A DNA stretch of 61,751 nucleotides from Nitrosospira sp. Its GTDB lineage: Bacteria; Pseudomonadota; Gammaproteobacteria; Burkholderiales; Nitrosomonadaceae. A program made the translations under genes and the position numbers. The notes under the pieces are model-generated. The model was not told the origin of the DNA. It saw nothing but the letters and a program-made list of their open reading frames with translations, and did not search any database. The stretch lies in assembly GCA_013450215.1 (NCBI GenBank), contig JACDSH010000004.1:1-61751 (forward strand). The letters run 5' to 3'. Positions within the stretch are counted from its first letter, which is position 1. Every line of letters begins with the position of its first letter. Positions 44,357 through 61,345 of the stretch are shown here, one piece after another.

Positions 44357-45370
44357 TCATGGATTGTTCCAGCAACCTGGACTCTGCGAATCAAAGAATG
44401 TCACGGTGGTGTCTGTCAACGAGCGGCCAACGGCCTCGAGGACATGGCGGCAGAAGGCCTGCTGATCAGCTTCTGTTTGACCAGTGAACACGGAGACCGC
44501 CATTCGTCTAGGCGGACTTGCCGCGATGGCATCGAGTATATGCTGGTCCCGTTCGTCAAAGCTCCAGCCATACACGACCACACTCTCCCCGAGAGCGGGC
44601 AGGGCCTTCTCATACATGTTCGTCAGGTAGTGACTTCGGCGAATCGCGGCAACTTTCACCTTACTGGTTCCCTCACTAACAAACACCGGCACGTAGCACT
44701 CGGACGACCACTTTCGGGTAATCGTTGCGAGCAAATCACCCGTCGTGCCAGTGGATGCCTCGATCTTTGTCTCATCACCGATGTAGTCGCGAGCTACTGA
44801 CAGACTGCCATGTGGATAGAACACCAGCGTTGATCCCACCGCGCGCTGATAAGGCGTCCGCAGGTATTCCCAGTCCGTCTGGAATTCACCGTGACGGAAC
44901 ACGTCCTTGAACCAGTTGCCGTTTGCTGCATTGAACAGCAGCATGGCCCAGTACAAGGTGAGGTCATAGTTTAGGCTGACGACAGTTGGGAACGAGCTCG
45001 CGAAAGCGCCAATCCGTTGCAGGTCGGCCACAACATCGGCATGTACCGGATGCACGCTGTGCACCGCTTCGATCAGTGCTGTGCGTACTTCCGCGTAGGC
45101 AGCGGAGATATCGGTCGACGGCGACCCCAAGGCCGCGTTGACGTGCTCGGCATACCAGCATGCGAGCAGCACATGTTCAAAGTCGGTCGTGCCAATCTTC
45201 GCAAAGATTGGTGCAGTGGTAGGAAGCAGCCCTTTTGCGTCAGCCACGCTGTGAAGTGTTGGATATGCAAATTCTTCATGAATGGCGATGCTGGCGCCGT
45301 TGCCAAGAAGGATGGTACTCCAACTTTCTCTATGGATGCTTGCCCAGGTGACGATGTCGATTCTGTCCAT
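44357..45370 (-). CDS. SIR2-like DUF4917 family protein
   Basis: A 337-residue protein 53 bases behind brxL on the same strand. The N-terminus STILLGNGASIAIHEEFAYP is the GNG-S motif of the DUF4917/SIR2-like group, with FSFTVVSLNYDLTLYWAMLL-like segment (SFPTVVSLNYDLTLYWAMLL) and VVVYGWSFDERDQHILDAIA, which match the NAD-binding-fold positions of SIR2. SIR2-like effectors in defence islands deplete NAD when triggered. Its attachment to a BREX operon suggests an abortive arm, which is inferred. Confidence 0.7.
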   Translation of the reverse strand: MDRIDIVTWASIHRESWSTILLGNGASIAIHEEFAYPTLHSVADAKGLLPTTAPIFAKIGTTDFEHVLLACWYAEHVNAALGSPSTDISAAYAEVRTALIEAVHSVHPVHADVVADLQRIGAFASSFPTVVSLNYDLTLYWAMLLFNAANGNWFKDVFRHGEFQTDWEYLRTPYQRAVGSTLVFYPHGSLSVARDYIGDETKIEASTGTTGDLLATITRKWSSECYVPVFVSEGTSKVKVAAIRRSHYLTNMYEKALPALGESVVVYGWSFDERDQHILDAIAASPPRRMAVSVFTGQTEADQQAFCRHVLEAVGRSLTDTTVTFFDSQSPGCWNNP

Positions 45371-45423
45371 GTATTTCTACGTATCCAATCTGTGCGCTGG
45401 AAGTTGGGCTCCATTCGTTTGCA

Positions 45424-47517
45424 TCATGCCCGGAAGATATCCACCTTCGTTTCCAGGCACTTGCGCAGACTCAGATCGTTTGCACCAACCTCAAACCAAC
45501 CCGCAGGCTTCTGGTAGAAGTCCAGCCCGCGACCGATCTTGATGATCCAGCCGTTGTCGAGGTGGATTTCGCGGTCATGGATGTTCGGGTTGAGTTTCAC
45601 CTCTAGCTCGACGTCCAACTCCAGGAGACTCTGTTTGAGCTCGTCAAGCTTCTCGGCGATGTCGGCCAACTGGGTCTTGTCGTCGTAGCCGGTGATCAGG
45701 CTGATCTTCTCCACGGTGCCTGCCTTCAGCACCGTTTCGCAGAAGCGCACGAAGTTCTGAATCTGATGTTGCAACCGGATATACGGATCCTCGATGGCGA
45801 CGGCCTTTGCACCCTGTAAGTAGGGGCCAAGGATCGACTCATAGCTGTAACCGGTGTCGCCATAAAGGATGCTGAAATGCTGCTCCTTGAGCTCCACTGC
45901 TGGTGGCGCAACCACCGCTGGTGTTGGCGCAATCGGCGATGGAGCCACTGAAGGTTCTGCCGCAACGGTAGGCGCAGGCTGCCCGGCAGACTGCGCTTCT
46001 ACTGCCTCGCTGGATTGCTCACTCGCCTGGCTTAAACGACGACGAGCCGGCTGCTGTGTTGCCGCCGCATCCTTCGATTCAGGGCAGAAAACTACCACCT
46101 CCTCACCGCTGGCCTTGAAGTAGGACAGATTGATGCGTGCAAACTCGTCGTCTGGCTTGCGCTTATTCATTTGCTCCTTGACGCGGCGGCGGCACTCAGT
46201 CGCGTAGGCCACGTACTCTTCGAACTCGTCATCGGTCGGCGGCCCGTTCGGGTGCAGGATCTTCAAGAACGCGCAGACGGTTTTCTTGATGCCTTTTTCG
46301 TCGCGCCCCTCGATGGCCTTGCCGAGTCGAATGCGCTTGCTGACTTCCTCATACCGGTTGGTGTGCTTGAACTGGTAGTGGAAGGCCTCTGCAAGGTAAT
46401 CGGTGATGAATCCGTAACTGCTGGTCAGGAACTCGCTGCTGTTCTTGGGCATCTCCCAGCCCGGGATGTACGCCGCGAAGCGGTCCATCACTGCCAGGTC
46501 AAACTCGGGTGGAAGCGGTTGGAACAGGTCATGCTCGTTGGAGTTCACCACTTGCTGGATCGATACATCGATGTTTCCGACGAAACTCAGACTGGCATCA
46601 GCAATGACCTCAGCGCCGCGCGAAAAGCGCCCGTTGGCCATGAAGTCCTTCATGATCTGGATGGTGTCCTGATCGCGCACTTTGATCCCGCCAACCTCGT
46701 CAAACGCGACCGTGTCCCAAAAGCCGACCAGGCCCACCTTGCGTCGGGCATTGTTGTAGAACAGCGTGGCCTTGGTCGCTTGGCCGCCCGAGATCAAGGT
46801 GGCGTAGGGCGAAAACTCGCTGAAGAAATAGGACTTACCGGTGCCGCGTGGGCCTAATTCGATGTAGTTGTAATTGGGTTCCACCAAGGCTGCCAGCCGA
46901 GCGATGAAGTGCATCTGCACTCGCTTCGACAGCTTGCTTGGCTCCAGACCAACCGAACGCAGAACCGCGGCGATCCACTCGTCGCGTGTGAATGCTACCC
47001 GGCCTTCGGTGTAGCGCTCAAAGTCGAATCGTGAGAGTTGAATGGGCCGCAGATCCTCGATCGAGAACGCGTAGTCGTCCTCATCGATATCGTTGTGCGC
47101 CAGGGTGACTTCCGCCCAAATTCCGCCTTCTAGAAGCCGGTCGTTATCGCGGTAGAATTTCTCGCCAATCGCAATGCGCTGCGAGTTGAAATTCTCCAGG
47201 GATGCCCAGTGGCGCTTCTCCTTCTCGACATAACGGACGTGAATCTTGTCGATGAAGCGGTGCTTGCCCTTGGTGGCCACCTTGGATTGAGCTGCATTGG
47301 CTTCGTCAGGACGAACGTAATTCTCCTGCAAGGAGGAGAGCACTGCTTCAATGCCTGCATCCATTTCTGCCTGGTCATTGCTGGCGCAATACTTGGCGAG
47401 CAGAAACTCCAGGACAAAGGTTGGGACGTTGGTGCCTTTCTTAATCCGATGCAGCAAGTCCTTGCGAAGAACTTTGCCATCGAAGGTTACATTTAGCTTT
47501 TGGTCAAGTTCGTCCAT
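45424..47517 (-). CDS. brxL: BREX Lon-like AAA+ protein BrxL
   Basis: A 697-residue AAA+ protein. The N-terminal domain is followed by Walker A ELGPRGTGKSYFFSEFSPY (residues 221-238) and a Walker B/sensor region with FWDTVAFDEVGGIKVRDQDT. Residues 490-560 form a Pro/Ala-rich linker to a C-terminal Lon-protease-like fold, lacking an obvious Ser-Lys dyad. BrxL forms DNA-binding ring hexamers or dodecamers and is needed for phage blocking in type 1 BREX. Begins 5 bases after pglZ. Confidence 0.92.
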   Translation of the reverse strand: MDELDQKLNVTFDGKVLRKDLLHRIKKGTNVPTFVLEFLLAKYCASNDQAEMDAGIEAVLSSLQENYVRPDEANAAQSKVATKGKHRFIDKIHVRYVEKEKRHWASLENFNSQRIAIGEKFYRDNDRLLEGGIWAEVTLAHNDIDEDDYAFSIEDLRPIQLSRFDFERYTEGRVAFTRDEWIAAVLRSVGLEPSKLSKRVQMHFIARLAALVEPNYNYIELGPRGTGKSYFFSEFSPYATLISGGQATKATLFYNNARRKVGLVGFWDTVAFDEVGGIKVRDQDTIQIMKDFMANGRFSRGAEVIADASLSFVGNIDVSIQQVVNSNEHDLFQPLPPEFDLAVMDRFAAYIPGWEMPKNSSEFLTSSYGFITDYLAEAFHYQFKHTNRYEEVSKRIRLGKAIEGRDEKGIKKTVCAFLKILHPNGPPTDDEFEEYVAYATECRRRVKEQMNKRKPDDEFARINLSYFKASGEEVVVFCPESKDAAATQQPARRRLSQASEQSSEAVEAQSAGQPAPTVAAEPSVAPSPIAPTPAVVAPPAVELKEQHFSILYGDTGYSYESILGPYLQGAKAVAIEDPYIRLQHQIQNFVRFCETVLKAGTVEKISLITGYDDKTQLADIAEKLDELKQSLLELDVELEVKLNPNIHDREIHLDNGWIIKIGRGLDFYQKPAGWFEVGANDLSLRKCLETKVDIFRA

Positions 47518-47522
47518 TTTTA

Positions 47523-50051
47523 TTATTCCGTATAGTCAGTTTCAATCGCAAGAGTGCTGTATGTGGCGAGCGTGGTTGGGTTCAGTACCTTGAACGAAAA
47601 CTTACCCCTGAATTCATCATCCATCCGTAGCGCAATCTGTTTGCGTTGGTCCGTCATCAAAGTCACGGTTCGGGTGGTGGGATTCACATCACCGCCGGGG
47701 CGTGGCTCACCCACCACATTGCCCTTGCTGTCCTGGGCTTCCAACAAGATTTCAACGCTCATGTCCTGCGAGAACATGTCGTCTGCAACCAGTATCACTT
47801 CGACAACCGGCAATCGCGTAGTAATTCGTTTGGCGCCATTCTTGTAGCTCAGCTCCACCACTACCTTGCGCAATTCCGCATGGGGGGTGGTATCCAGCCG
47901 CGCTACCAGCACGGGTACGACAGCTTCCGCGAGGGATACTCCGCCGTGGAAATACAGATGCCCCGCACGATAGGGCGCCATGCTGCGGGGCAAGGCTACT
48001 TGGGAGAAGTCGCCCCGAATGCCGACCTTATCCGCGCTGACGATCAGGCTGTGACCATCAGCCGCGCCGTTGCCCAACATCATGCGGTCATGTGCATTCA
48101 CAAGCCAATTGCCTTGGGGTTTGACGCAAACATCACCAGCTTCTGCATGCGCGTTGAGGAAGAAGCCGTGGTCGGTCACGATGACCGCCTCTTTGAAGCC
48201 CATCCCGCGCAGCTTGTGCAGAGCGACGCGAATCAGCTTCAGCGTGCCGGGAATCAGGCCCAGCGTCGTCTCGGGGTTGCTTTCCAACTGGCTGTCGATT
48301 TCCGTGGAACGCAGCACCAGCAGGTCGACAATCTCTGCAATCTTCGGTTTGCCACGTACAAAATCGTTGAGCAACATTTCCGAAAAGCGATCCCCATACC
48401 GCTTAGCCAGCACATTCATGCGTTGCGGGACGTTGCCCACCGGCGCCCCGGCCAGCTTGGGCAGGAGTGAGTCGTTCTCCAGCGACAGGGTCAAACCCGT
48501 GCGTGCGCCAGGCAACAAGCTCGCCATGCCCACCAGGGTGATGGTCGGCAGCTGCGCATAGGCCGCTTGCAGCTCGACCGGCCCATCCTCTGCCAGCAGT
48601 TTTTCGAGGGCCACACCCAACTCGTAGCGCAGGGCGTCCACCATCAGGTAGGCCACCTTGCGCCCTCTTTCCCTGAGCCGGTCGGCCACCAGGCGATCAA
48701 AGGCATCGGCATTGGCTAGGCGCCCAGTCGGCGGCCACCCAGCGGTCTCGACGTGCTTCACGAACACGCCCTGAACCTTTTCGGCCAGGCGCCGATAGCA
48801 GGCGCGAGCCTGGCTGATGACTTCATGCATCAAGCCGTGCTGGTCGAGGAAATCGCCTGCCGCCTGCTCAAACTCGCGTTGCAGGCGGTCAGCCTCGCGC
48901 AGGCTGCCCAGATAAAAATCGATCAGATCAACCTGAGAGCGGGCGTGGTCGGGCAACTGGCGCTCAAAGTCTTCGCAGGCTTCGACCAGGCTCAACCCGG
49001 ACCGCACCAGCTCCCACTGCGCCTGGCTTTCGCCCTTGCCCAGCCACACGGAACCTTTGTGGCGGGTCAGCACACGGCGTGTGGCATCAGGATCCCCAGT
49101 GACGATGCCCTTGATTGCCGTGCGCAGGAAAGTCCGCTCCTCAAAGGGGAAAGTGTCGCGCTCGCCCAGGTCTTCGATCGCCCTGCACAGGTCAGTCAGA
49201 TAGAGCTCCGCCTCGATGGCTTCCGCCCGCTCGATATAGACCGCGCGTGACTTCGGGTCGCTGCGCAGACGGTCACATACATCCTCGACGATCGGTCTGG
49301 TTTCCATCGGCGCGTGCGGCACCCCTTTCAAGGTTTCTGGCAGCGCTACCGGCAAATCAAACACGAACTCGCTGAACAGCACGTAGCGCCACAGCTCATC
49401 CGCCAGGGCGGACCAAGTCTTACCGCGCGTCTTCACGCTCAGACCCAAGGTGGCGCGGAGGAAGCCGTGTGCCTCCTGCACCCAGCCTTCTTGCCCCTTA
49501 AGCGCCTCGGTTTGGCTGGCACTGGGCGCCAGCAGGCCGGCCAGAATCTCGCGGACAGACTCCACCCGCAGAGTGGCTCGCAACTGGGGCCAGCTCACAC
49601 CACCGCCGATCGCGTCGATCACCGCGAAGCTCGGTCCAGCAGCTGACCCGGTAAACACTTGGCGAATCTCAGTGGCATGATCCGGCTTGGCACGCAGACA
49701 AAGGCTCAGGTACTCGTCGCCATCGCCCTGCGGGAACACGGCACCGCATTCTGCATACAGGGCGAATGGGTCAGCCTGCTTCTGCTCGTCGGTTTCGGGT
49801 TGCTTGGTCGGTACATAGATCAGCACCCCTTCCAATGGGGCCTTGGGCCGCCCTACGTCGCGCAGTGCCAGCAATGCCGCCTCCCGGCTTTCAATGCTGC
49901 TTTCGGATGTGTCAATGACGCGCACCTTGTCGGCTGCCAAGTCGAAGCACTGCTCGCGGTAACGCTTGTCGGCGTCGTACACCACCAAGGCGCCGGCCTG
50001 CTTCAAGCGGGGCCGCAGGACGCTCTCGCGGATAAATTCAGCAATACTCAT
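47523..50051 (-). CDS. pglZ: BREX alkaline phosphatase-like PglZ
   Basis: An 842-residue PglZ. The central alkaline-phosphatase-fold region shows KVAYLMVDALRYELGVALEK, metal-binding Asp, and IVTDHGFFLNAHAEAGD. The start at 50051 overlaps the pglX stop by 4 bases. PglZ is the hallmark gene of BREX and is required for both methylation and defence. Length is within the type 1 range. Confidence 0.93.
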   Translation of the reverse strand: MSIAEFIRESVLRPRLKQAGALVVYDADKRYREQCFDLAADKVRVIDTSESSIESREAALLALRDVGRPKAPLEGVLIYVPTKQPETDEQKQADPFALYAECGAVFPQGDGDEYLSLCLRAKPDHATEIRQVFTGSAAGPSFAVIDAIGGGVSWPQLRATLRVESVREILAGLLAPSASQTEALKGQEGWVQEAHGFLRATLGLSVKTRGKTWSALADELWRYVLFSEFVFDLPVALPETLKGVPHAPMETRPIVEDVCDRLRSDPKSRAVYIERAEAIEAELYLTDLCRAIEDLGERDTFPFEERTFLRTAIKGIVTGDPDATRRVLTRHKGSVWLGKGESQAQWELVRSGLSLVEACEDFERQLPDHARSQVDLIDFYLGSLREADRLQREFEQAAGDFLDQHGLMHEVISQARACYRRLAEKVQGVFVKHVETAGWPPTGRLANADAFDRLVADRLRERGRKVAYLMVDALRYELGVALEKLLAEDGPVELQAAYAQLPTITLVGMASLLPGARTGLTLSLENDSLLPKLAGAPVGNVPQRMNVLAKRYGDRFSEMLLNDFVRGKPKIAEIVDLLVLRSTEIDSQLESNPETTLGLIPGTLKLIRVALHKLRGMGFKEAVIVTDHGFFLNAHAEAGDVCVKPQGNWLVNAHDRMMLGNGAADGHSLIVSADKVGIRGDFSQVALPRSMAPYRAGHLYFHGGVSLAEAVVPVLVARLDTTPHAELRKVVVELSYKNGAKRITTRLPVVEVILVADDMFSQDMSVEILLEAQDSKGNVVGEPRPGGDVNPTTRTVTLMTDQRKQIALRMDDEFRGKFSFKVLNPTTLATYSTLAIETDYTE

Positions 50052-53000
50052 TCATCACCCCCGGCATTCTTCTTGCCGCGCACCTTCTTCGGTTTGGCCT
50101 CGGGCTCGATGTACAGATCTTCCAGGCCATGTGCGATCGCCAGGCTCTTGTCTGACCTGCACTTCTCACGCACACGCTCGGGCCAGTAGCTCATCGCCAG
50201 GTGCGCCCAGTCGTAGTCGCCTTTCTCTAGCTTGGCCCAGGTGTCCTTGAGCACCTTCTGCCAAGGCTTGTGCCGGAACAGCGGCCACAGCGGTGCGGCG
50301 CTGATCTGCACACCGTCGTCGTGGTTAGGCTTGTAGGTTGGCGCGAGTTTGAGCAGGGTGTCGCGCAGCTCGATCAGTTCCAACTCGAAGGCTTGCAGTG
50401 CTTCGAACTGCTTTTCGTCGTCGCGGGTACGGGCCGAGCCTTTGTTGCGCAGCGCCGTCACATCGCCGCCGACTTGTTTGAGCTTGGGCTCTATGAAGTC
50501 GTTGAAGGCCGTGTAAAGCGTTTGGTTGCTCAGACTGTGGTAGTAAATCCACAGGGTGTAGCTGCCCGAATTCGTAGATATTGGCCAATATATTGGCGCT
50601 TGCCTGCGACTTTTGGAGTATCGGTAAAGGTGATCAGCAAAAAAACCATTTGGTTGCGCAAGATAGTTTCTTAACCGAGTTTTTTCGAGCAAGGAACAAA
50701 TCTCAGCCTCGGTATCGTCAGCTTTGGAACCCCAGATGATTCGCAATGCTTGTTCGACCCGTCCCACGATATCCATATCGTGACCTACTTCATCTACCAA
50801 TACTCCTTGCCAATCTACCTTAAGTTGATATCTTTCTGGCACATTGCCTGATGCTGTATTCACATCGGAAGCAATTTTCAATGAAGCAGGCTGGTGTTCA
50901 GGTATTGGCAACCAGGGATTAAAGTTCATTTCAGCATCAGCATTTGACGCACACCGTATGTCCCAGCGTCCATAAATACATCCAACCAAGAAGGAAACCG
51001 CAGAATGTGCCCAGAACTGAGATGGCGATGACGTCGACTTCCAATCAACTCCGAGAATAGGCAATACGGAAGGCCGGTTGCTGGCGGCTGAAAAGATATC
51101 GTTCTTCTCCTCGTGGTTAAGTTTGTATATGCTCGCTGCAAGCTCATCAAGCTCATTGATGAGTCTCCCTACTTTCTCGCCTACCCTCAAGTAGTTAGCT
51201 ACCCATTCCGCTCTTTGAATTGCGATAGGTGGGCGACAAAAAAATGGGTCTGTTTCCAATCCCTCACTGGCCAGCCTCATCTCTGCATAAATCTTCCTTG
51301 AAATATCGACTAACCTCGTCCTTGCTGTGTCATCGGCAAGAATCAGGGGGAAAGCGTTTACGTAACCCACGCCCTTATGTTGACCACAATAGAAATTTAT
51401 TCCTGATTGAATTACCAACGAATTAACTAACCCAAGTACATACCATGTTGTATCGTTGGGTTCGATTGGCGCACCAAATCCTTCATTAGTCAAAATGAAC
51501 CCTGGCGGAAGAGGTTGAACGTCCAAATACTCCCCGCGCTTCCCAAAACACAAGCCAGCCTGCAAATGCCGCGTCGGACTCCGCAGAATGGTTGAAGGAT
51601 GATTTACTAAATCGCCTGCATAACCTTCAGTAATAACGCACTCTTGGAATGGCACATAGAACGGTGAATATTCAGAGCCATTCCACATTCGTTTCACGCG
51701 GTGGACGAATGCGTTGGGCTCCACTTCCCAGAACAACCTCTTAAAAACATCGCTCTTGATTGTGTGCCCGTTGTAGAACGTAACTCCATTTCCTGAGAGT
51801 GACTTACCTTCTTTCAATGCAATACGCAAGAAATCCGGTAATTGAAAGTTGATTGCCGAAAATGGCTGTTCAAGAAGTGCTTCATGTGAAAGCTCAACAG
51901 GTTGTCTTATAGCAGTAAGCAGAGCTCCAGGCTTATCCGTTTCTTTAGTTATATCTACTCCAAAAGCCAGTCCGAAAGATTGATTTCCCTGTGAAAACAC
52001 TACAGAAGAAACCTCGACATTTGCATCTAGAACTCCCCAACCGAGCTCACCTACGATCTCCAAGGCTTGGTTGCGCAGCAGGAGATCAGTACGAAAATTC
52101 TGATAGCTATTCTTGATCAATACTGTTCTATCAATTACTGAGCCACAACGCCCACCAGTTGCCAGCAACTGTGCGGTTCGCTCGACAAATGCACAGATGA
52201 GATTATTCGAATGGTACGGAAAAGCCCTATCCACATAGTCAGCTGTTCGAACAGATATCTCACCGAAGGGCGGATTCATCACCACCACATCAAACACCTC
52301 GCGGCACAGATCGATCAATCGCAATCCCTGCAAAGCATCCTGAGCAAACAGACGCCCCTGATAGTTCGATTTCGCCGCCTGCGCGAACTCGGTCAGTGCC
52401 ACGTGCAACCGTACCCCTGCCTGCTGCCAGCTTTCCTGCTCCTGCTGCGCAAATAGCCCCGTACCTTTTCCGACGTAGACCTGACGGATTAAGTGCGGCA
52501 GCTCCCGCTCCGCCTGCAGCAGCACACCCAGCTCCGGCAAGCCCCTGAGCAATTGCAAGGTTTTCTCGAACAGTTCGGCGTCGCGCTGATCCAGGCTGGC
52601 GGCAAACTGCTGGCGCAGCTCACGCTCTGCCGGCGGCGCAATGGCGGCGACCACGTGCCCACGTCCAATCATAGGCCGCTCTTTGGCCTTTACCCCTTCA
52701 TCGTGCCACGCACGCTGCGCTCGCAGCCACAGTGCCAAGGAAGCAATCTGCGCGGCGCGCGGGTCGATGTCGACGCCGTAGATATTGTGCTCGATGATCA
52801 GGCGCGGCACGTCGCGCAAAAAGGCAGCCTCGTCTTCGTAGGTCTGGCTCAGTGGCTTGAGCGCAGCTTGGGGCTGGGTTGAGACGTCCAGCGAACCGGG
52901 GCCATGTTGCAGCTCCCAGGCCCATGCCTCGCGATAGATCTCGGCGAACAGATCGAAGGCATACAGGCCAAAGTGCATGGAGCCGCAGGCGGGGTCCAAG

Positions 53001-53884
53001 AGTTTCAGGGTGCGCGGGTCGCGCAGCTTGGTGGCTGCCCCCTGCTTTTGAAGAGTGGCCGTTTCGTCGGGCTTGACCAGCAGATACTGGCAACGCTCGC
53101 GCAGATATGTATTGCCCCCGGTGGCGTTGAACCACAGGCGCCCCAGGGTGTTGTCCACCAGGAACTCGACGACGTAGCGCGGCGTGAAGAACTGGTTGCG
53201 CACCGCCAGCTCGCGGCTGTTGCGCGGTGCCTGCGAGGCATCTCGCATCGCCTTGCGTTCTTCTTTGGAGTTGAAGTACTGGTAGATCCAGCCGATGGTT
53301 TCGTCCTCGCTCCACAGCGGGGCAATTTCGGCATCGTTGATAAGGTTGAGCACTTGCAGCAGCGCTGCTTCGCGCGGGAACAAGCGGCCCTGCGGCGAGT
53401 AGCGATCGAACAATCCCGGCAAGTCCTGGCTCAGCTCATCGAACACACTGAACAGGTAGGTGCGGTAGGCATCGCCGGTTTCGCCCAGGCCGGTGCCAGC
53501 CAGCCGTGCGTACAGCTGAAAGCCCTTGGCCTGGAAGCCGTTGCCGACCGACTCAACCAGCAGGCCACGCGACTCAGCCATGCGCAAGGCGGCCATGCGG
53601 TTGAGCACGGTAAAGGCTTGCTCGCGGACGATACGGTCCAGACCCTGCTTGGCATCCATGTCGCCACTGGCGGTGTAGTGCGCCAGGGTATCGCGCAGGA
53701 TGCGGGCGGATTCGCGCTGGGCATCGTTGATATGGCGCAGGCTGGCCAACTCCGCCACGGTGCCTGCATTCGGGTCCATGCCGTAGTCGTTCTGGAGCTG
53801 ACGAGTGAACTCCTCTTCCAGCACGCGACGGGCGTCGTTGACGAAGCGCTGCAGGCGATTTCTTGTTGCTTGATCGAAGGCCAT
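50048..53884 (-). CDS. pglX: BREX adenine-specific methyltransferase PglX
   Basis: A 1278-residue N6-adenine methyltransferase from ATG 53884 (MAFDQATRNRLQRFVNDARR), with GGAGAAG upstream; a longer start at 53920 would overlap the zinc-ribbon gene. Motif I-like KLLDPACGSMHFGLYAFDLF precedes motif IV VMNPPFGE near residue 535, and YGVDIDPRAAQIASLALWLR links them. The C-terminal target-recognition region (about 50590-52260) has lower GC and more A/T codons than the rest, typical of exchanged specificity domains. PglX marks the host genome for self recognition. Confidence 0.94.
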   Translation of the reverse strand: MAFDQATRNRLQRFVNDARRVLEEEFTRQLQNDYGMDPNAGTVAELASLRHINDAQRESARILRDTLAHYTASGDMDAKQGLDRIVREQAFTVLNRMAALRMAESRGLLVESVGNGFQAKGFQLYARLAGTGLGETGDAYRTYLFSVFDELSQDLPGLFDRYSPQGRLFPREAALLQVLNLINDAEIAPLWSEDETIGWIYQYFNSKEERKAMRDASQAPRNSRELAVRNQFFTPRYVVEFLVDNTLGRLWFNATGGNTYLRERCQYLLVKPDETATLQKQGAATKLRDPRTLKLLDPACGSMHFGLYAFDLFAEIYREAWAWELQHGPGSLDVSTQPQAALKPLSQTYEDEAAFLRDVPRLIIEHNIYGVDIDPRAAQIASLALWLRAQRAWHDEGVKAKERPMIGRGHVVAAIAPPAERELRQQFAASLDQRDAELFEKTLQLLRGLPELGVLLQAERELPHLIRQVYVGKGTGLFAQQEQESWQQAGVRLHVALTEFAQAAKSNYQGRLFAQDALQGLRLIDLCREVFDVVVMNPPFGEISVRTADYVDRAFPYHSNNLICAFVERTAQLLATGGRCGSVIDRTVLIKNSYQNFRTDLLLRNQALEIVGELGWGVLDANVEVSSVVFSQGNQSFGLAFGVDITKETDKPGALLTAIRQPVELSHEALLEQPFSAINFQLPDFLRIALKEGKSLSGNGVTFYNGHTIKSDVFKRLFWEVEPNAFVHRVKRMWNGSEYSPFYVPFQECVITEGYAGDLVNHPSTILRSPTRHLQAGLCFGKRGEYLDVQPLPPGFILTNEGFGAPIEPNDTTWYVLGLVNSLVIQSGINFYCGQHKGVGYVNAFPLILADDTARTRLVDISRKIYAEMRLASEGLETDPFFCRPPIAIQRAEWVANYLRVGEKVGRLINELDELAASIYKLNHEEKNDIFSAASNRPSVLPILGVDWKSTSSPSQFWAHSAVSFLVGCIYGRWDIRCASNADAEMNFNPWLPIPEHQPASLKIASDVNTASGNVPERYQLKVDWQGVLVDEVGHDMDIVGRVEQALRIIWGSKADDTEAEICSLLEKTRLRNYLAQPNGFFADHLYRYSKSRRQAPIYWPISTNSGSYTLWIYYHSLSNQTLYTAFNDFIEPKLKQVGGDVTALRNKGSARTRDDEKQFEALQAFELELIELRDTLLKLAPTYKPNHDDGVQISAAPLWPLFRHKPWQKVLKDTWAKLEKGDYDWAHLAMSYWPERVREKCRSDKSLAIAHGLEDLYIEPEAKPKKVRGKKNAGGDE

Positions 53885-53886
53885 GC

Positions 53887-54120
53887 TTATTTCTTCTCCG
53901 CGCTCGCGAGCCACCACCAAGGGGCAAACTCATTCTTGTCATTGGTGTGCTCGATGACTGATCCACACGCCGTGCACTGATAGGTGAACTCCTCCCAGCC
54001 GCCAAACATCGAGCCTCGGAACGGCCGCGTATCAACATGGCGCAACTCTGAATGCGGCGAGTCGTGCCGGCCCTTCTTCAACTGTTCCTGGCAGGCTTGG
54101 CAAGGAGTCGGAGCTGTCAT
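53887..54120 (-). CDS. Small zinc-ribbon protein between brxC and pglX
   Basis: A 77-residue protein starting in an ATGA overlap with the brxC stop and ending 2 bases before pglX. Two CxxC pairs (PCQACQE near residue 8 and QCTACGSV near 50) would hold zinc. RPFRGSMFGGWEEFTYQ lies between. It is too tightly coupled to be accidental. Small accessory genes occur at this site in type 1 BREX loci, but I do not recognise this one. Confidence 0.75.
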   Translation of the reverse strand: MTAPTPCQACQEQLKKGRHDSPHSELRHVDTRPFRGSMFGGWEEFTYQCTACGSVIEHTNDKNEFAPWWWLASAEKK

Positions 54121-57100
54121 TTATCGCCCCCATTGCCTACCGTGAACGTCACTTCGATCTCAGTGTAGAGGCCGAGCTGTGCCTTGATCTCGTGGAGCTG
54201 CTGAAGCAGCGCATCGATGTCTGCAGCCGATGTCATCTTCATGGGCACCACGATCGACTTGGTGAGCTTGGCCGGGCCTTTATCACCCGCCTTGGCGCGA
54301 TCTTCTTCCATGCGCTGGCGTAGGCGTTCCTGGCCCTGGCGCTGAATGGAGCGCTTGAGGTCTTCGAGGGTGCTGTTGATGTCGTAGTCGCGTGCCAGGA
54401 GCTTCTTGAGTCCGGCCAGGTCCTGGGTCGCGGTCAGGGCGAGTCCATCGAGCCGATTCACAGAATTGCCGCGCTCTTCCTGGGTGAGCTCTTCCCATTC
54501 GGGGATGCGCTGCAAGTCCTCTACCCCGTCCTTCAAGCGCAATTTTTGCTGCTCAGACAGGGTGATGACGGCGTCGCGCACCCGACCCTTCAGGTGGGTC
54601 AGCTGCGAATTGAAGTCGGCGGTGCGCTTGTAGAAGTCCTCTTTGCCGAGGCGCTCCGACAGGGTGCCCAGGTCTTCACTCAGTTCGCGGCGTAGTTCGC
54701 CAGGCACGCCAGTGTCCGGCAAGGCCTCGATGTCACGGCGATGGGCTTGCAGATCCCGAAGAGTGGCATCGAGCCCGTTGTCGAGAACGCGCTTCACTTC
54801 CAGCGCCCACTTGAGGTTGTCGTAAATGGCAGAGGCTTCGGCGCCCAGGCGCTGGGGGGCGTCGGAGGCATCTGTAAACAGGACATCGGCAATGTCCTGG
54901 TTCAAGGTGCGGATGCGGTCGCTGCCCGCCAACCCAAGGCCACTGAGTTTCTCGGCCAAAGAGCCATACTCGTGCTGGAAGTGCGGGAAGTGCTTGGCGG
55001 CTGCCTTGCTGATCTCCTGCTCCAGCGGAATGACCATGTCACCGACCAGTTCGGTGAGCCGCTCCGCCGCACGACCGAGGGTTTCGTTGGACGGGCGCTC
55101 GTCGCGCAGGGCGACGCCGATCTGCTTGAAGGAGTTGTTGGTCTTCAGGGCATCGATGGCCTGCTGGCCTGCGGCAGTGACTTCACGTCCCGAGACCTTG
55201 AGTTTGATTTCGCCAGCCATCAGCATGGCGGCGACGATGTAGCGCGTCGTGTCGGGTGACCAGCCGAACGGGTCGCTGCTGAAGTCGTCGAGCAGGCGCT
55301 TGCCATCGACTGTGCCGCGCTTGTCGATGTAGTCGCGGATGCTGATCATCGCCTTGTGGTCGGTCTTGAAGGAGGCGCGACCTGCCACGGTTTGCACCAG
55401 GCCGAGCGGGTCCAGCGCGCTGCTGATGGCAGCGGGGTTGGCGACCTTCAGGAATTTCTCGGCGGTGTCGGTGCCGGCGCGCACTGGTGCTTCGACATAG
55501 CGGTCGAAGACTTGGTCGGCCACGTCGGAGAGCAGCTTCTTGGCTGCTTCCAATAGGTCGCCGTCCAGCGCCGATACCGCCGTAGCCTGGCCCCGGAAGA
55601 CAAACGAGCCTGCCTGCAGGGTCTGCTTGATTTTGCTCTGCAGTTGGGTCGCGAGCTTGGCGGCCCGATCGAGCTGGCCGGTGCAGTAGTCCTTGACCTC
55701 TTGGTCGGGCTCGTTGCGGTGCAGTTCGGTAATGCGCTGGCAGCGATAGATTTCGTTTGCCAGGTCGTCGAGTTCGGAATTGGCGCGGGCCAAGAGCCCG
55801 ATGACGTTCCGGCCTGCGCGGCTGCGGGAATCATCCAGCATCCGATTCTTGGCGGTCTCGTAGTCGCTGGCAGACACCAGCTCGACGACGGTCTGAATTG
55901 TGCTCTGATCACCGGCCAGGCTGGTGATGGCGCTGCCAGCCTGGACCTTCAGGCCCGTTGCGACGGCCATAGTGCCGTGCAGACTGAAGCGGGGCAGCGG
56001 ATCGAAGGACTCGCGCAATGCATCGTTGAAGATGCGCCTCACGTCCACGGTACGTAGTGCGATGACGCCGCGCTCTTGTTCGATGTCTCGCAGCTTCTCG
56101 CTGAGGAAGACGAGGTTGCCGTCTTTCTCACCCAACGGCACATGCACGTCGCCCAACATCTCTTCCACGGCCTTGCGCACTGTGTCCAACTGCGAGGAAG
56201 CAGTGATCGATGGATGCATCAGGCTGGCGACGTTCTGCACTGACACTGGCAAGTTGCCGAGGATCTGCAACACGGCGACAGACTTGGCGATGTCCTGATG
56301 GAGTTGCGAGTCCGGGAAGCGAATCTGGACCTTGCCAACTGACTGGTGGATGGACGAGAAGGCGCGGCGAATGTCCTTCTCCAGCTCGTCGTACAGGGTG
56401 ACGGTGGTAGCTAGCCAGCCCACCGGCTGATCCGCCATCGCCTTGGAGCCACCTTCGCCCTTCAGGACGTCCTGGATCACCTTGATCGCAGAGCGCAGGC
56501 CGATGCCGCCGGTGGACTTGGCCAGGGCGCCCAGCAGGTGCAGCAGGATGTCGAAGTGAGCCGGCAGGAACGGGTAGAGATTAGTGAAACTCTCTTTGCT
56601 GAAGTCGGCGTCGTAATACTTGGCGTCTTGCAGCTTGGTGTTGTGCCGCAGCGCCTGGCCGTGGGCCTCAAACAGCTTGCCGAGCTCAGTCTCGCCAGCC
56701 GGTGATTTGCCGAGCAGACGGCGGTAGCAGATCTCTTTGATGTCGCTCGATTCGAGGTCAATCTGGATCGGGAAGCGATCTTTCAGCTTGTAGAGCTTGT
56801 CCGAGTTCAGCGCTGCGCGCGGGTCGTCCTCGGTGAGGGTCTGCTGCGCGGTGGAGATGATCCAGGCCTTGCCATCGCCCAAGCGCTTAAGGTTCTTGGC
56901 CAGGCCGTCGAGGTTAAGAATCAGATTGTCACGTGAGGCGACGTACTGGCCAACCTCGTCGACGATGAAGATGATGTTCTGCTTCCCGCTCTTCTCGCGA
57001 ACAATGTCAAGCATCTCTTGGACACGCTGGTCTTCAAACTGGAAGAATCCTTCTGTGCTGGAGGAAAAGGATTTGGCTTCCGGAAAAAGCGCAGGGTACA

Positions 57101-57749
57101 TTTCGTGTGCGATCTTTGGAATCAGCCCATCAATAGCGAGAGGGTTATTTTGAACGCGAGCCCAAGTGGCCCCAGGCAGTGCTTTTGCGATCCGCTCATG
57201 TAGCTCTGATGTGCGCGCATCCTTTTCGACCATCCGCTCGAAGGCTGCGATCTTGAGGTTTCTTGAGTACCCCGCCCACTGGAGCACCTTGAAGTACAGC
57301 ACGGTGGAGACATCTTCCATCGTGGCACCTGCCAACATTTCGCTGGCCAGATCGAGCATTACTACGGCAGCAGGGAATCTTTGGGCCACCGTGCTCAAGA
57401 GTGCTTTGGTTTGCGGCTTGTGCAGCCGATCCTGTAGATGCTTTATGAAAGGCGTGCCGTCGATGGTGCACTTGTCATCGAATGCAAGACCAAGATACTT
57501 GGTGAATGAGCTCTTACCTGACCCGTAGAAGCCCGAGACCCAGACGCCAACCTCATTTTCGCCACCAGACTCCATCGCCAGTTGCATGCGATCGAGGAGC
57601 TTGCGGAACTGCTCCTCAATGCTCTCGGTGACCACATACTCGGAGATCTCAGCCTTGAGGCGGCCTTCTTGCGAGGCGCCATAGGTGATGACCTTCTCAA
57701 TAGTCCGGTAGATGTCCTTGCTTGGGTCGAAGAGTGAGCGAATGGTCAT
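54117..57749 (-). CDS. brxC: BREX P-loop ATPase BrxC
   Basis: A 1210-residue ATPase. Walker A GFYGSGKSSFTKYLG at residues 73-87, Walker B IIFIVDEVGQYVASRDN near 260, and the long DUF6079/BrxC helical body with a Leu/Glu/Arg-rich C-terminus. BrxC is essential for BREX activity and probably organises PglX and PglZ. Starts 29 bases after brxB. Confidence 0.93.
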   Translation of the reverse strand: MTIRSLFDPSKDIYRTIEKVITYGASQEGRLKAEISEYVVTESIEEQFRKLLDRMQLAMESGGENEVGVWVSGFYGSGKSSFTKYLGLAFDDKCTIDGTPFIKHLQDRLHKPQTKALLSTVAQRFPAAVVMLDLASEMLAGATMEDVSTVLYFKVLQWAGYSRNLKIAAFERMVEKDARTSELHERIAKALPGATWARVQNNPLAIDGLIPKIAHEMYPALFPEAKSFSSSTEGFFQFEDQRVQEMLDIVREKSGKQNIIFIVDEVGQYVASRDNLILNLDGLAKNLKRLGDGKAWIISTAQQTLTEDDPRAALNSDKLYKLKDRFPIQIDLESSDIKEICYRRLLGKSPAGETELGKLFEAHGQALRHNTKLQDAKYYDADFSKESFTNLYPFLPAHFDILLHLLGALAKSTGGIGLRSAIKVIQDVLKGEGGSKAMADQPVGWLATTVTLYDELEKDIRRAFSSIHQSVGKVQIRFPDSQLHQDIAKSVAVLQILGNLPVSVQNVASLMHPSITASSQLDTVRKAVEEMLGDVHVPLGEKDGNLVFLSEKLRDIEQERGVIALRTVDVRRIFNDALRESFDPLPRFSLHGTMAVATGLKVQAGSAITSLAGDQSTIQTVVELVSASDYETAKNRMLDDSRSRAGRNVIGLLARANSELDDLANEIYRCQRITELHRNEPDQEVKDYCTGQLDRAAKLATQLQSKIKQTLQAGSFVFRGQATAVSALDGDLLEAAKKLLSDVADQVFDRYVEAPVRAGTDTAEKFLKVANPAAISSALDPLGLVQTVAGRASFKTDHKAMISIRDYIDKRGTVDGKRLLDDFSSDPFGWSPDTTRYIVAAMLMAGEIKLKVSGREVTAAGQQAIDALKTNNSFKQIGVALRDERPSNETLGRAAERLTELVGDMVIPLEQEISKAAAKHFPHFQHEYGSLAEKLSGLGLAGSDRIRTLNQDIADVLFTDASDAPQRLGAEASAIYDNLKWALEVKRVLDNGLDATLRDLQAHRRDIEALPDTGVPGELRRELSEDLGTLSERLGKEDFYKRTADFNSQLTHLKGRVRDAVITLSEQQKLRLKDGVEDLQRIPEWEELTQEERGNSVNRLDGLALTATQDLAGLKKLLARDYDINSTLEDLKRSIQRQGQERLRQRMEEDRAKAGDKGPAKLTKSIVVPMKMTSAADIDALLQQLHEIKAQLGLYTEIEVTFTVGNGGDK

Positions 57750-57778
57750 AGGGTTGTCCCAGGTGTTCTTTTGTCTGT

Positions 57779-58354
57779 TCAGCCGCCGACGTGGACGGAG
57801 CGGTAATTGCCGTCTTCCGGGTAGAAGCCGAGAAACTTCAGGCGCGTCTTGCCGGTTCGCACGCCGGGGTACAGAAAAATCGTCGGCACGTGAAACTTGC
57901 CTTGGAGCTGGCTTTCGATGGCACCGATGCGCATAAACGGATGCAGTGCCTCGAGGTCCGTCACCAAGAGCAGCGCGTTCTGCTGGCCCTCCAGGGGTTG
58001 CAGGGCATCTTCAAGGCGCTTCAGTAGGCCGTTATCCGCTGTCAGGATGTCCGCCAGTGCCTTATTGGTGCGCGGCCAATCCAGCGGAGCGGACCTGTCT
58101 TCCTTCACGCAGAGCGACCAGAGCGGGTCGTCTTTGAGCAAGGCCCAGATCTGTTCCGCAATGGAAAACGTGTGTACATCCCAGCCTTCCTGGTGGAGCT
58201 TGGCCACCCAAGCGGGCGTTTGCTGCTTCACCTCAAGGATCTGCTCTGGTGGGAAGACGAGGTAGTAGATCGGCTCGAAGCTCGCATGGCTGAGCTCGCG
58301 CCCGTGCCGGATGCGCTCGCGCAGTTCGTCGAAATCAGCTTTGAGTGAGGGCAT
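57779..58354 (-). CDS. brxB: BREX protein BrxB (DUF1788)
   Basis: A 191-residue DUF1788 protein: N-terminal ELRERIRHGRELSHASFEPI and FEPIYYLVFPPEQILEVKQQ, the C-terminal VPTIFLYPGVRTGKTRLKFL-type strand. It overlaps the brxA 3' end by 20 bases, so translation is coupled. Required for methylation and defence in type 1 systems. Confidence 0.92.
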   Translation of the reverse strand: MPSLKADFDELRERIRHGRELSHASFEPIYYLVFPPEQILEVKQQTPAWVAKLHQEGWDVHTFSIAEQIWALLKDDPLWSLCVKEDRSAPLDWPRTNKALADILTADNGLLKRLEDALQPLEGQQNALLLVTDLEALHPFMRIGAIESQLQGKFHVPTIFLYPGVRTGKTRLKFLGFYPEDGNYRSVHVGG

Positions 58355-59123
58355 CGCAGAGCGCCTCCATGTTTTGTTGTTTCCAGCTGATCCGGATCAC
58401 ATCGCCCGCCGCTTGGACGATGAGCAATCCTTTCAGCGAAAGCCGCTTGATCTCTTCCAGCACGTCTTCGCGGGCCAGACCAAATAGCTGCCAATCTTCG
58501 TGAATGAGCAGTGCGTTGTCGCCTACACCCGCAAAGTGCAGTTCGTAGGAAAGGTATGCCGCAACTGTCTGTGATATGCGAAAGGGTGCAATTTTGCGAG
58601 CCTGTTTCTGACCCCGCTCAAGCAATCCATAATCCGCACAGCAACCGGTCAAATAAGCGGATACATGTCGCACCGTCGTTTCCGACCATCGTTTCATCGT
58701 CTTCCCATCGTCTATGCCACGCTCGACGAATTGACGGGCGTCGACATTGGAGATCTGTGTGTACCCGCCTACGTACCGCGCCCAATAGACATAACGAACA
58801 AAGTCGCCAAGGATCAAGTTGGCTCGACTAGTGTACACGAGCATTAGCTGTGCGAGATCAGCAGTAGAAATGACTGAGGAGAGCCGTTTGAGATGTATGG
58901 CTGGCGCCCCCCCTGCAACTAGGTAACGTGGGGCGAAGCATTCAATCACGATGTTGCGAAGCCGGCGCGCGGTGACCGAAGGAAATCTGCCGGATTCCAG
59001 TGCGGCTTGATATAGCTGATTCGGCGACAGACCCGGCGACCACAAGTCGAGGAGAGCCTTGGTCTCGTTGACGAGTCCAAGGCCTGCCCCCAACTGGGTC
59101 GTGTAAGGCTTGCTGTCAGCCAC
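58335..59123 (-). CDS. brxA: BREX protein BrxA (DUF1819)
   Basis: A 262-residue DUF1819 protein, NusB-like helical fold. AGLGLVNETKALLDLW at the N-terminus, SVTARRLRNIVIECFAPRYL in the first third, and TTVRHVSAYLTGCCADYGLL fit the family. A small DNA-binding role is reported for the family in type 1 systems. Begins 2 bases after the brxE stop. Confidence 0.92.
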   Translation of the reverse strand: MADSKPYTTQLGAGLGLVNETKALLDLWSPGLSPNQLYQAALESGRFPSVTARRLRNIVIECFAPRYLVAGGAPAIHLKRLSSVISTADLAQLMLVYTSRANLILGDFVRYVYWARYVGGYTQISNVDARQFVERGIDDGKTMKRWSETTVRHVSAYLTGCCADYGLLERGQKQARKIAPFRISQTVAAYLSYELHFAGVGDNALLIHEDWQLFGLAREDVLEEIKRLSLKGLLIVQAAGDVIRISWKQQNMEALCDALTQS

Positions 59124-59125
59124 AG

Positions 59126-59626
59126 CTAACCCACAAGATATGGGTAGGTTTTGGCGTTCTGCGTGAACGCCGATAGATAGACCGCAGCGATAGCCTTCAG
59201 TGTGTCGGTGGAATCGAGATCCTTGATGCCACCGACCGCCGTTGGACCCACGCTGGACGTGCCGCCTGTGGCGGCCAATCGCTTCAACGCATCAAGCGCA
59301 GCCTCTTTGCTTTGTGGCGCCTGGCTGGCGAGTTCTTCCCCCACGCTACTTTGCACGGTCGTGTGCAGGTCTTGCTCGACTTCCTCGGGCAACCGGAACA
59401 GGTGGTAGCTGCCGACGCTCAGATGATCGTCGTGCAATCGCCTAGCCGCTTCCAGCACACCGTGGTACTGAGCGAGGCGAGACGTTTTCGAGAAGACCGG
59501 CTCCAGAAAGAGCTTGCTTGATGCCTCATAGAACGCCGTTGGCCACCAGGCGCACTGAGCACGCTCGCCAAGGAAGCCGACGAGCATCCTCATTTGCAGC
59601 AATGTCGGTAGGTAGGATTCTTTCAT
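59126..59626 (-). CDS. brxE: BrxE-family protein heading the BREX operon
   Basis: A 166-residue protein. LLQMRMLVGFLGERAQCAWW followed by KTSRLAQYHGVLEAARRLHD is the pattern of BrxE, known as the first gene in type 6 BREX. Here it precedes a set that includes brxL, which belongs to type 1. The ribosome site GAAAGATGAG is weak. Its role is unknown. A BREX promoter must lie in 59627-59860, but no convincing boxes were found. Confidence 0.78.
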   Translation of the reverse strand: MKESYLPTLLQMRMLVGFLGERAQCAWWPTAFYEASSKLFLEPVFSKTSRLAQYHGVLEAARRLHDDHLSVGSYHLFRLPEEVEQDLHTTVQSSVGEELASQAPQSKEAALDALKRLAATGGTSSVGPTAVGGIKDLDSTDTLKAIAAVYLSAFTQNAKTYPYLVG

Positions 59627-59863
59627 CTCATCTTTCGTAGTTCATTTTTTCTAGTTTGTATTATTATCCCTGCACTGTACGGCCTTTGCTGGACTGGGGC
59701 AATTCTAGTATGCAGAATGCAAGGCTCGTAGCATGAGCCCGCATGGAGACGATTAGTTTTTCCTAGACGTCCATTCAGCAAGAATTGAGTTTCTCCCTAC
59801 ACATCAAGAAAATACAGTAGCATTATCGGTGTCAGTACTGTTGGGAAATGGTCGGGTGCGGGC

Positions 59864-59870
59864 GTTAGGC
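59864..59870 (+). other. attC-type core half site (GTTAGGC)
   Basis: GCGTTAGGC at 59862-59870 ends with GTTRRRY, the right half of an integron attC site. No matching RYYYAAC is found just upstream, so it is taken as the right half of a truncated attC at the left edge of the first cassette. Weak by itself but supported by the full site at 60032. Confidence 0.5.
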
Positions 59871-59901
59871 CAATAATTGTTATGTTTCGTGAGGTCCAGG
59901 G

Positions 59902-60099
59902 ATGTCAGAACCATTAATGCCAAGCTCAGCCCTTATGTCAGAGTATCTTGGTAAATGGGAACAACAAGAAAATTACAGGCTTCAAGAGGCATCTCTGGGG
60001 CCCCTCTTTCATACCTTCGTGCTAAATAATTTTCTAACTCGGCAGTTAACACGAATGCTGCGCGATAAAGCCGCGCAGCGCCGGTTAGCTCTACGTTAG
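59902..60099 (+). CDS. Integron cassette ORF 1, unknown
   Basis: A 65-residue protein (MSEPLMPSSALMSEYLGKWE). The cassette from the half site to the attC is about 230 bases. The reading frame ends with TAG inside the R' box of attC (60097-60099), typical of cassette genes that run into their recombination site. The sequence suggests a helical protein; no family recognised. GTCCAGGG lies upstream as a weak ribosome site. Confidence 0.45.
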   Translation: MSEPLMPSSALMSEYLGKWEQQENYRLQEASLGPLFHTFVLNNFLTRQLTRMLRDKAAQRRLALR

Positions 60100-60101
60100 A
60101 T
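60032..60101. other. Integron attC site (70 bp)
   Basis: The site reads TTCTAAC (R'', 60032-60038), a 5-base spacer, AGTTAAC (L'', 60044-60050), GCTGCGCG / CGCGCAGC internal stem (60057-60064 and 60072-60079), GTTAGCT (L', 60084-60090), a 4-base spacer, and GTTAGAT (R', 60095-60101). R''/R' and L''/L' each match in 6 of 7 bases. The symmetry and order are those of a folded attC. Confidence 0.82.
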
Positions 60102-60117
60102 TTATGGAGTCAAATTA

Positions 60118-60387
60118 ATGGCAATTTTCGATACCAAGAAAGTAATCGATTTCCTTTCTGAAAAATGGGGAAACCGAGATTGCCAAATGTGTGGCAAGGG
60201 TCCGTGGGAGGTTCAAGATAAAGCATTCCAGTTAATGGAGTTTCATCAAGGGAACTTAGTAGTTGGTGGCCCACTCATTCCAGTCATCCCTGTTACTTGT
60301 ACCAACTGCGGAAATACCGTTTTGGTCAACGCCATCATCTCTGGCGCAATTAAGCCGGAGACTGAAGCGCAGGGGAGAAAAGAGTGA
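60118..60387 (+). CDS. Integron cassette zinc-ribbon protein
   Basis: An 89-residue protein with RDCQMCGKGPWEVQD (residues 21-35) and CTNCGNTVLVNAIISG near the end; the two CxxC pairs form a zinc ribbon, with FHQGNLVVGGPLIPVIPVTC between them. TGGAG lies 8 bases upstream. Proteins of this form are common in integrons and islands, with no established function. It overlaps the next gene by 4 bases (GTGA). Confidence 0.72.
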   Translation: MAIFDTKKVIDFLSEKWGNRDCQMCGKGPWEVQDKAFQLMEFHQGNLVVGGPLIPVIPVTCTNCGNTVLVNAIISGAIKPETEAQGRKE

Positions 60388-60770
60388 CCAACCTAAAACT
60401 ATCTCAAGGCCTTGAAGTACTTCGCCCAAAAGCTGATAAGGCGTTCCCAATTCCTTGCAATGAGTGGGATGTATTAAAAGGAAAAATAAATGACCTAACC
60501 ACTGAACCGTGGTTCTTTCATTCTACTGGTACTACGTTAATCGGTGCGGCACTAGCGACTTTAATAGCTATATGGACTGGTGCAGTAACTACTACAGCAG
60601 ATAAAAACACAATCGTCATAGCTTGGGCTATTACCGCAGTTTGTTTGATGGTTGGTGTTGTGTCCCTATTTTTCGCTCATGCTGAACGCAAAGCTCACAA
60701 ATCAAAAGCAAGCGATGTTTTGACACAAATGAAATTAATTGAGCAAAGGTTTGAGCGTGAAGAAATCTAA
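60384..60770 (+). CDS. Two-helix membrane protein partnered with the zinc-ribbon protein
   Basis: A 128-residue protein starting at GTG 60384 within the stop of the zinc-ribbon gene. Two membrane segments (STGTTLIGAALATLIAIWTG; TIVIAWAITAVCLMVGVVSL) are followed by a charged helix (THE end: MKLIEQRFEREEI). The stop TAA lies inside the R'' box of the next attC. The coupled soluble zinc ribbon plus membrane protein layout resembles small two-gene defence or stress modules; function unknown. Confidence 0.7.
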   Translation: MTNLKLSQGLEVLRPKADKAFPIPCNEWDVLKGKINDLTTEPWFFHSTGTTLIGAALATLIAIWTGAVTTTADKNTIVIAWAITAVCLMVGVVSLFFAHAERKAHKSKASDVLTQMKLIEQRFEREEI

Positions 60771-60788
60771 CCCGGCGTTCGAGCGGGG
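60765..60788. other. Truncated attC, left half
   Basis: ATCTAAC (60765-60771) is the exact complement of a GTTAGAT box, followed by CCGGC and GTTCGAG, where L'' should be. No right half follows: IS-type sequence (TTCCCCCAAAATAGTTGACA) begins within 25 bases. So the second cassette has lost its 3' attC half. Confidence 0.6.
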
Positions 60789-60927
60789 CGGTAATCTTCC
60801 CCCAAAATAGTTGACACCTCCCCCTAACGGAACGGAGGTGTTTTATGGGCAAATCAAGTCTGCCAAAAGTGCGATCTGCCGTTACTATGACCATGACTGG
60901 GATGTGGTGTCTAGTGATCCTGATCGC
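60789..60927. mobile_element. Insertion sequence fragment
   Basis: TTCCCCCAAAATAGTTGACA followed by CCTCC...GGAGG (60829-60838 region) resembles an IS3-type terminus. One frame here (QIKSAKSAICRYYDHDWDVV) looks coding but is cut off at the next IS. The fragment lies between truncated attC and the IS3 element at 60928. Confidence 0.4.
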
Positions 60928-61002
60928 AGCTATTTGAGGTTCCCCCGATAAATAGTCTTCCAAGGGTGACGTACAATTAACGTTACTTTTTGGAGGAAGA
61001 AG

Positions 61003-61296
61003 ATGCAAAAGATCCCTAAGCAGGAATACACGACCGAGTTCAAGGAACGGGCAGTCAAGCATGTAAAGGAGGGGAAGTCGATTGGCTTGTCAGCTAAGGA
61101 GCTTGGTCTAGTAGAACAAACACTACGTAACTGGGTGAAGTTGTCAGCGGCAGGCAAGCTCACTGGAGCGGGTACCAAGCCGGTCACACAAGAACAAATG
61201 GATTTATCCCGGCTCCGTGCTGAGAACGTAAGACTGAAGCGGGAATGTGAAATCCTAAAAAAAGCCACGGCGTACTTCGCGAGAGATGTAGTGTGA
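61003..61296 (+). CDS. IS3-family transposase OrfA
   Basis: A 97-residue HTH protein (FKERAVKHVKEGKSIGLSAK, then EQTLRNWVKLSAAGKL) with a leucine-zipper-type C-terminus (LRAENVRLKRECEILKKATA). An A7 run at 61256-61262 (CTA AAA AAA G) is a typical -1 slippage site into orfB. The element cannot produce a full OrfAB because orfB is cut. Confidence 0.88.
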   Translation: MQKIPKQEYTTEFKERAVKHVKEGKSIGLSAKELGLVEQTLRNWVKLSAAGKLTGAGTKPVTQEQMDLSRLRAENVRLKRECEILKKATAYFARDVV

Positions 61297-61345
61297 AGTA
61301 CGCCTGGATTGATAAGCAACGGGAATTTCCTCTCACTGAGGTAGC
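61293..61345 (+). pseudogene. IS3 transposase orfB, N-terminal fragment
   Basis: GTG at 61293 starts KYAWIDKQREFPLTEVAY, the usual N-terminus of IS3 OrfB, in the -1 frame of orfA. After about 17 codons it joins unrelated sequence and loses the DDE catalytic domain. The region 61346-61751 shows no gene. Confidence 0.75.

Follow-up and report, generated by a model that had tools for sequence, protein, structure and literature searches.

Background

The described elements to which the present locus bears the closest likeness are the CALIN, in which attC sites are present and no integron integrase is found nearby or elsewhere in the genome; a published census counted 2,961 of them versus 2,760 complete integrons (PMC9024848). 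IntegronFinder 2 reports a CALIN from two attC sites upwards, and the earlier version of the program accepted a single site (PMC9024848). Points of comparison are also offered by the attC of the blaOXA-2 and blaOXA-21 cassettes of class 1 integrons, by the chromosomal integrons of congeners and other members of the host family, and by a group of small plasmids of enterobacteria (the pTA144-3 type).

The locus was found in Nitrosospira sp., on a contig of 61,751 nucleotides (C7) that was analysed over its entire length and is referred to below as the window. The genome of 1.6 Mb is assembled in 59 contigs, with an estimated completeness of 99.8%. A preliminary description of the window had pointed to an integron cassette array without an integrase at 59862-60788, next to BREX. 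To the left of these positions a BREX operon begins on the minus strand; to the right, an insertion-sequence region precedes the end of the contig. We conclude with considerable confidence that the locus is what remains of an integron cassette cluster, decayed and without an integrase, because one of its attC sites is genuine by its sequence, the next has been cut and no integrase gene accompanies them. The remnant is also foreign in base composition (44% G+C versus 57% for the window). Its features and those of its surroundings are collected in Table 1.

Table 1. Features of the cassette remnant and its surroundings (positions in the window)
Feature	Position	Strand	Details
BREX operon brxE-brxA-brxB-brxC-pglX-pglZ-brxL plus DUF4917/PDC-S21 gene	44357..59626	-	Conserved unit ends at 59653
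Possible attI-like or insertion-point segment	59798..59882	+	Ends in GTTA 59879-59882; likeness to congener contig G007:C63
GTTAGGC heptamer, earlier taken for a half site; no attC half	59864..59870	+	L'-R' profile
Cassette 1 ORF, 65 aa	59902..60099	+	Stop TAG 60097-60099 inside R'
Intact attC, OXA-2-type	60032..60101	+	R'' 60032-60038, R' 60095-60101, crossover G^TT 60095/60096
Cassette 2 gene A, 89 aa, Zn-ribbon-like	60118..60387	+	Two conserved CxxC pairs
Cassette 2 gene B, 128 aa	60384..60770	+	Two hydrophobic helices; overlaps gene A by GTGA
Truncated attC, R''-L'' half only, ATCTAACCCGGCGTTCGAGCGG	60765..60786	+	R''-L'' profile; exact 20-mer in viral contigs
Truncated IS3-family-like IS	60935..61343	+	orfA 61003-61296 (HTH_Tnp_1); homology from 60934/60935 in many genomes

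The intact attC site

The 70-bp element that separates the two cassettes has its parts in the order R'' (TTCTAAC), L'', L' and R' (GTTAGAT), with correct AAC and GTT cores. R'' and R' are complementary at six of seven positions, and L'' and L' match at six of eight with one extra (extrahelical) base. A DNA search of 72,556 plasmids returned 82 records, headed by the attC of the blaOXA-21 and blaOXA-2 cassettes (86-88% over 66 bp, E from 1e-14 to 6e-13); the identity to the blaOXA-21 site is 87.9% over 66 bp, and in the OXA-21 record the attC lies directly 3' of the gene and is followed by qacEdelta1, as in a class 1 integron. The element and its counterparts (88% over 66 bp) are of equal length and share the terminal stem CGATAAAGCCGCG and R', whereas R'' reads GCCCAAC in the blaOXA-2 and blaOXA-21 sites. 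Unlike those cassettes, the one in the window is unrelated to a beta-lactamase and resides on a chromosome without intI. Sites resembling the element also occur in many genomes of the host family, and attC sites at intI-positive loci match it at 98% over 44 bp (L034) and 89% over 65 bp (L037).

Statistical models of attC structure point the same way. A covariance model of our own making (R1), derived from 21 sites in the integrons of relatives with the window site left out, and with E-values that are to be read as rough, gave the element 31.2 bits (E 3.9e-4), its sole match in the genome. Positive controls from outside the training set scored 58.7 bits (aadB attC) and 48.5 bits (OXA-21 attC), and 31.2 bits is among the lower of the scores that true attC sites attain. 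Position weight matrices based on 81 distinct attC ends from relatives were run on both strands of the window (123,460 positions), and with the L'-R' matrix the top rank in the window went to the right end of the intact site, at 21.0 bits.

The bottom strand is predicted to fold into a hairpin of -17.4 kcal/mol (DNA parameters; z -2.9) that was equalled by one in 200 shuffled sequences. In the minimum-energy fold L' pairs with R'', and not R' with R'', as might be expected if the element were a chance palindrome or a terminator. The OXA-21 attC, however, shows the same ambiguity in folding, forced R''/R' pairing costing 2.8 kcal/mol there versus 1.9 in the window, and neither a palindrome nor a terminator would explain homology to the attC of known cassettes at an E-value of 1e-14, so that we regard this alternative as scarcely conceivable. 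Judged by its sequence, the element is a genuine attC and, because it is homologous to the OXA-2 attC, it is likely to be recombinable by an integron integrase. The R''-L''-L'-R' symmetry recognized in the preliminary description is borne out by the cores, the order of the parts, the homology and the covariance model; of the checks proposed at that stage, both the covariance-model score and the bottom-strand fold came out in favour of an attC.

The ends of the cluster

Cassette 2 is followed by a site of which the right half is missing. The R''-L'' matrix places it first among the 123,460 positions, with 25.2 bits as against 17.3 for the next best in the window and a leave-one-out median of 20.5 bits for true R''-L'' ends. 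Its 20-mer TAACCCGGCGTTCGAGCGGG recurs exactly in two viral contigs (L094 and L095), where it opens attC sites supported by the covariance model. The first rank and the viral 20-mer together argue that this is a real attC, cut at 60786, and the full covariance model with its filters off yields just 6.3 bits here because the right half is lost. The truncated site that had been noticed after the 70-bp element is in fact the best R''-L'' match on either strand of the window.

To the right of the broken attC come 148 bp (60787-60934) for which neither the plasmid collection nor the loci compared offered a relative, and then the IS, which is common in the genus. Direct cutting of the attC by this IS was considered and rejected as stated, since the homology of the IS begins at 60934/60935 and the 148 bp lie between.

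At the left end, the half site that had been proposed in front of the 70-bp element could not be upheld. The GTTAGGC heptamer scores -1.1 bits (rank 333) with the L'-R' profile and 1.6 bits (E 6.5) with the unfiltered covariance model, and we have rejected it as a mere heptamer match. A different candidate for the left end came from a congener, in which a segment of contig G007:C63 (L073 5413-5497) is 79% identical to 59798-59882 over 85 bp, the similarity stopping at GTTA. Integron integrases join DNA at places of this kind (G^TT). In the congener the 85-bp segment is followed by ORFs with degraded attC-like ends: the best R''-L'' and L'-R' matches coincide after an ORF of 335 aa (12.2 bits with the covariance model), and a second, weak L'-R' end follows the first ORF. 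This cassette stretch is absent from another congener, G006, in which the flanking genes adjoin. Taken as a whole, L073 5351-7560 is a cluster of decayed cassettes that contains a possible SIR2-like ORF and a relic attC, and no intI occurs in the 12-kb stretch that was read.

Because the match ends at GTTA and decayed cassettes come next in the congener too, the segment in the window may represent either an attI-like site or a point of insertion common to the two genomes, a tentative assignment that draws on two copies, too few for a firm claim. A search of 399 genomes of the order disclosed no further copy, and comparison with the attI regions of ten intI-positive relatives disclosed no likeness, all scores lying in the shuffled range. 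The comparison with the congener suggests GTTA 59879-59882 as the left boundary of the cluster.

The missing integrase and the class of the element

No integron integrase was found in the window, as had been noted before, or anywhere in the genome, where the genome-wide search called for at that time had a best TIGR02249 score of 86 bits against a cut-off of 265. The best-scoring proteins are a pair of tyrosine recombinases, 303-304 aa in length and probably XerC and XerD, and the other integrase-family proteins of the genome (on contigs C19, C32 and C50) gave no TIGR02249 match. A true intI is nevertheless carried by 16 of 61 genomes (the host and 60 relatives), two of the eight congeners among them, which makes it plausible that the gene was lost here or that the cluster originated through an integrase acting in trans.

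The assembly is a draft whose contig ends 965 bp beyond the truncated attC, and it is possible that attC sites or an integrase were missed in an assembly gap. One might even suppose that the integron is whole in the living strain and was split by the assembly only, given that the end of the contig is so close to the cluster and that its final 55 bases (61697-61751) are identical to an end of contig C19. We consider this highly improbable: none of the 59 contigs contains any part of an integron integrase, the covariance model finds no second attC in the genome, and C19 runs on into ordinary chromosomal genes. The 55 bases are likely to be an assembly-graph overlap, which would place those ordinary genes beyond the cluster.

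With intI absent and an attI that is tentative only, the locus falls short of a complete integron. It differs from the chromosomal integrons of congeners and of the family (L030, L031, L032 and L033), whose attC are of the same type across many family genomes, in that these keep intI, and its left-end segment is unlike their attI regions. The absence of an integron integrase is as in a CALIN. In contrast to the default definition of IntegronFinder 2, however, the locus has one complete attC and half of another, since the upstream half site is not attC-like, and this is below the minimum of two. "Array" was for the same reason a generous word. What stands of the earlier description is a remnant cluster of cassettes, on the grounds of the attC homology and covariance-model score, the cut second site and the lack of intI genome-wide; the upstream half site has to be given up. 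The element is of a well-known and common kind, a decayed, integrase-less CALIN with a single attC.

The neighbouring BREX operon

The operon to the left of the cluster is recognizable as BREX by the presence, in order, of brxA, brxB, brxC, pglX, pglZ and brxL; brxE (59126-59626, minus strand), which encodes a BrxE family protein, is the gene nearest to the cassettes. Searches with BrxE found three relatives in the 399 genomes of the order and two more in viral contigs. The DNA homology of the three closest BREX relatives (G567, L124 and L125) with the window stops at 59652/59653, outside the cassettes. These operons carry other DNA at that end, and at least G567 and L125 have a different gene upstream, which we take to be a WYL-type regulator; no supported attC was found in the stretches compared of any of the three. 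The break in homology and the lack of cassettes in the relatives argue that BREX and the cassettes are independent modules that became joined secondarily near 59653.

The cluster had been called unusual beside a BREX operon, and this holds up poorly, as the close homologues end at 59652/59653 without cassettes; a loose association would still be allowed by a finding in a distant BREX locus of the same type, G752. There, an attC-like site of 48 bp (L116 3121-3168) lies ~1.1 kb upstream of brxE, and its weak score of 19.3 bits (E 0.026 in a search of eight loci) makes it a lead only. Its surroundings include a possible R''-L'' half at L116 ~4057, and a GIY-YIG-like ORF and an ORF of 285 aa lie beside the two. 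Were BREX and cassettes functionally or recurrently associated, for example through a preference of cassettes for insertion upstream of brxE, the G752 site might be a second instance, but its cassettes would face BREX, opposite to the orientation in the window, and the three much closer homologues have no supported attC in this position. Such an association is in our view improbable, and the link between the two modules looks mostly incidental. Literature searches on BREX in connection with integrons or attC listed no paper that joins BREX with CALIN or attC.

Other elements in the vicinity may be recorded here. Prophage genes (head-tail connector, tail tube and tail tape measure) occupy 32604-39857, ~5 kb before the BREX operon. 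The window opens with the 3' end of a tmRNA (positions 1-53), of which contig C20 carries the complete copy; this end was the sole match in an Rfam search of the window, which returned no RNA family at the cluster. A stretch of 31 bp in a BREX-bearing viral contig (L124 298-328) matches the tmRNA stretch of the window, and Rfam did not confirm a tmRNA there.

A possible history of the cluster

From these comparisons we infer the following order of events. An integron integrase, ancestral or acting in trans, would have placed the cassettes at a GTT target, perhaps in the attI-like segment that ends at 59882, and would afterwards have been lost or may never have been present at the window locus. 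The second attC would later have been cut by rearrangements, among them the junction at 60786 and the IS at 60935, and the other side of the cluster would have become joined at 59653 to the BREX operon. A supplied integrase could still cut and join the intact attC on its folded bottom strand; cassette 2 would no longer be excisable with precision, because its attC is broken.

How the cassettes reached the locus allows for a second answer, namely that an integrase located elsewhere put them off-target at a place where there was never an integron. Off-target insertion is one origin of CALIN that was proposed by Cury et al., according to the summary of their work in PMC8618304. It would agree with the absence of intI and of a nearby attI homologous to those of the relatives, and with the congener contig G007:C63, in which decayed cassettes likewise separate genes that are neighbours in G006, the 12-kb stretch read there being free of intI. 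The 85-bp segment common to the left ends of both clusters, on the other hand, suggests a shared attachment site and not random targets. We treat an off-target origin as a serious contender, although we lean somewhat against it.

The contents of the cassettes

The small ORFs had been described as having their stops inside the att sites, and this is the case at both: ORF65 stops in R' of the intact attC, and gene B with TAA 60768-60770 in R'' of the truncated one. The last ~20 codons of ORF65 in cassette 1 are attC sequence, a search found no protein relatives, and the ORF may not be a gene.

Cassette 2 is the one unusual feature of the remnant, a conserved pair of genes for a Zn-ribbon-like protein and a membrane protein with two helices. 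Both proteins have their counterparts, in the same gene order, in a Gallionella sp. MAG (L050 3001-3677; 65% identity for gene A and 70% for gene B) and on 2.68-kb mobilizable plasmids of E. coli and Salmonella (pTA144-3 type; L049 826-1499; 53% and 35% to pTA144-3), as compared with 60118-60770 in the window. Neither a pattern scan nor the covariance model found an attC at the plasmid or Gallionella copies, and the remaining annotated genes of the plasmids are for replication, mobilization and Rop. None of the papers in the collection searched names the proteins of these plasmids. Against the Gallionella copy, pN is 0.20 and pS 0.76 for gene A, and pN is 0.18 and pS 0.84 for gene B; with pS saturated and pN near 0.2, the sequences indicate that both genes are under purifying selection, and the two-gene cassette has probably been kept for its own function.

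As to what that function might be, the structure model of gene A (helix plus beta strands, pLDDT 70) is compatible with a Zn ribbon, and that of gene B (pLDDT 57) was too poor for structure comparison. Sequence searches of the PDB gave no usable match. Gene B was tried as a SLATT two-helix effector and the assignment was dropped: the leads were below the cut-off (E 0.017-0.019; PADLOC RTasSLATT, E 0.019), and the curated SLATT profile scored 15 bits versus a cut-off of 41. Matches of gene A in viral contigs were discarded as short and from an unrelated small protein, and no relatives of gene B were found in viral contigs or phages. Cassette 2 might conceivably be a module of two genes for defence or plasmid stability, in which the membrane protein would act as effector and which would move in three forms: as an integron cassette, as cargo on tiny plasmids, and inserted in chromosomes. 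We put this forward as a speculation that is rather unlikely to be right.

Implications

As an integron remnant the locus is ordinary. Its attC is a real one, of a type shared with clinical beta-lactamase cassettes, and here it sits in the chromosome of a bacterium that has a small genome and relatives with many such sites; this agrees with the view that environmental bacteria are a source of attC types. The one promising part of the locus is the conserved pair of genes in cassette 2, compact and testable, which lies beside a defence operon here and occurs on small enterobacterial plasmids as well.
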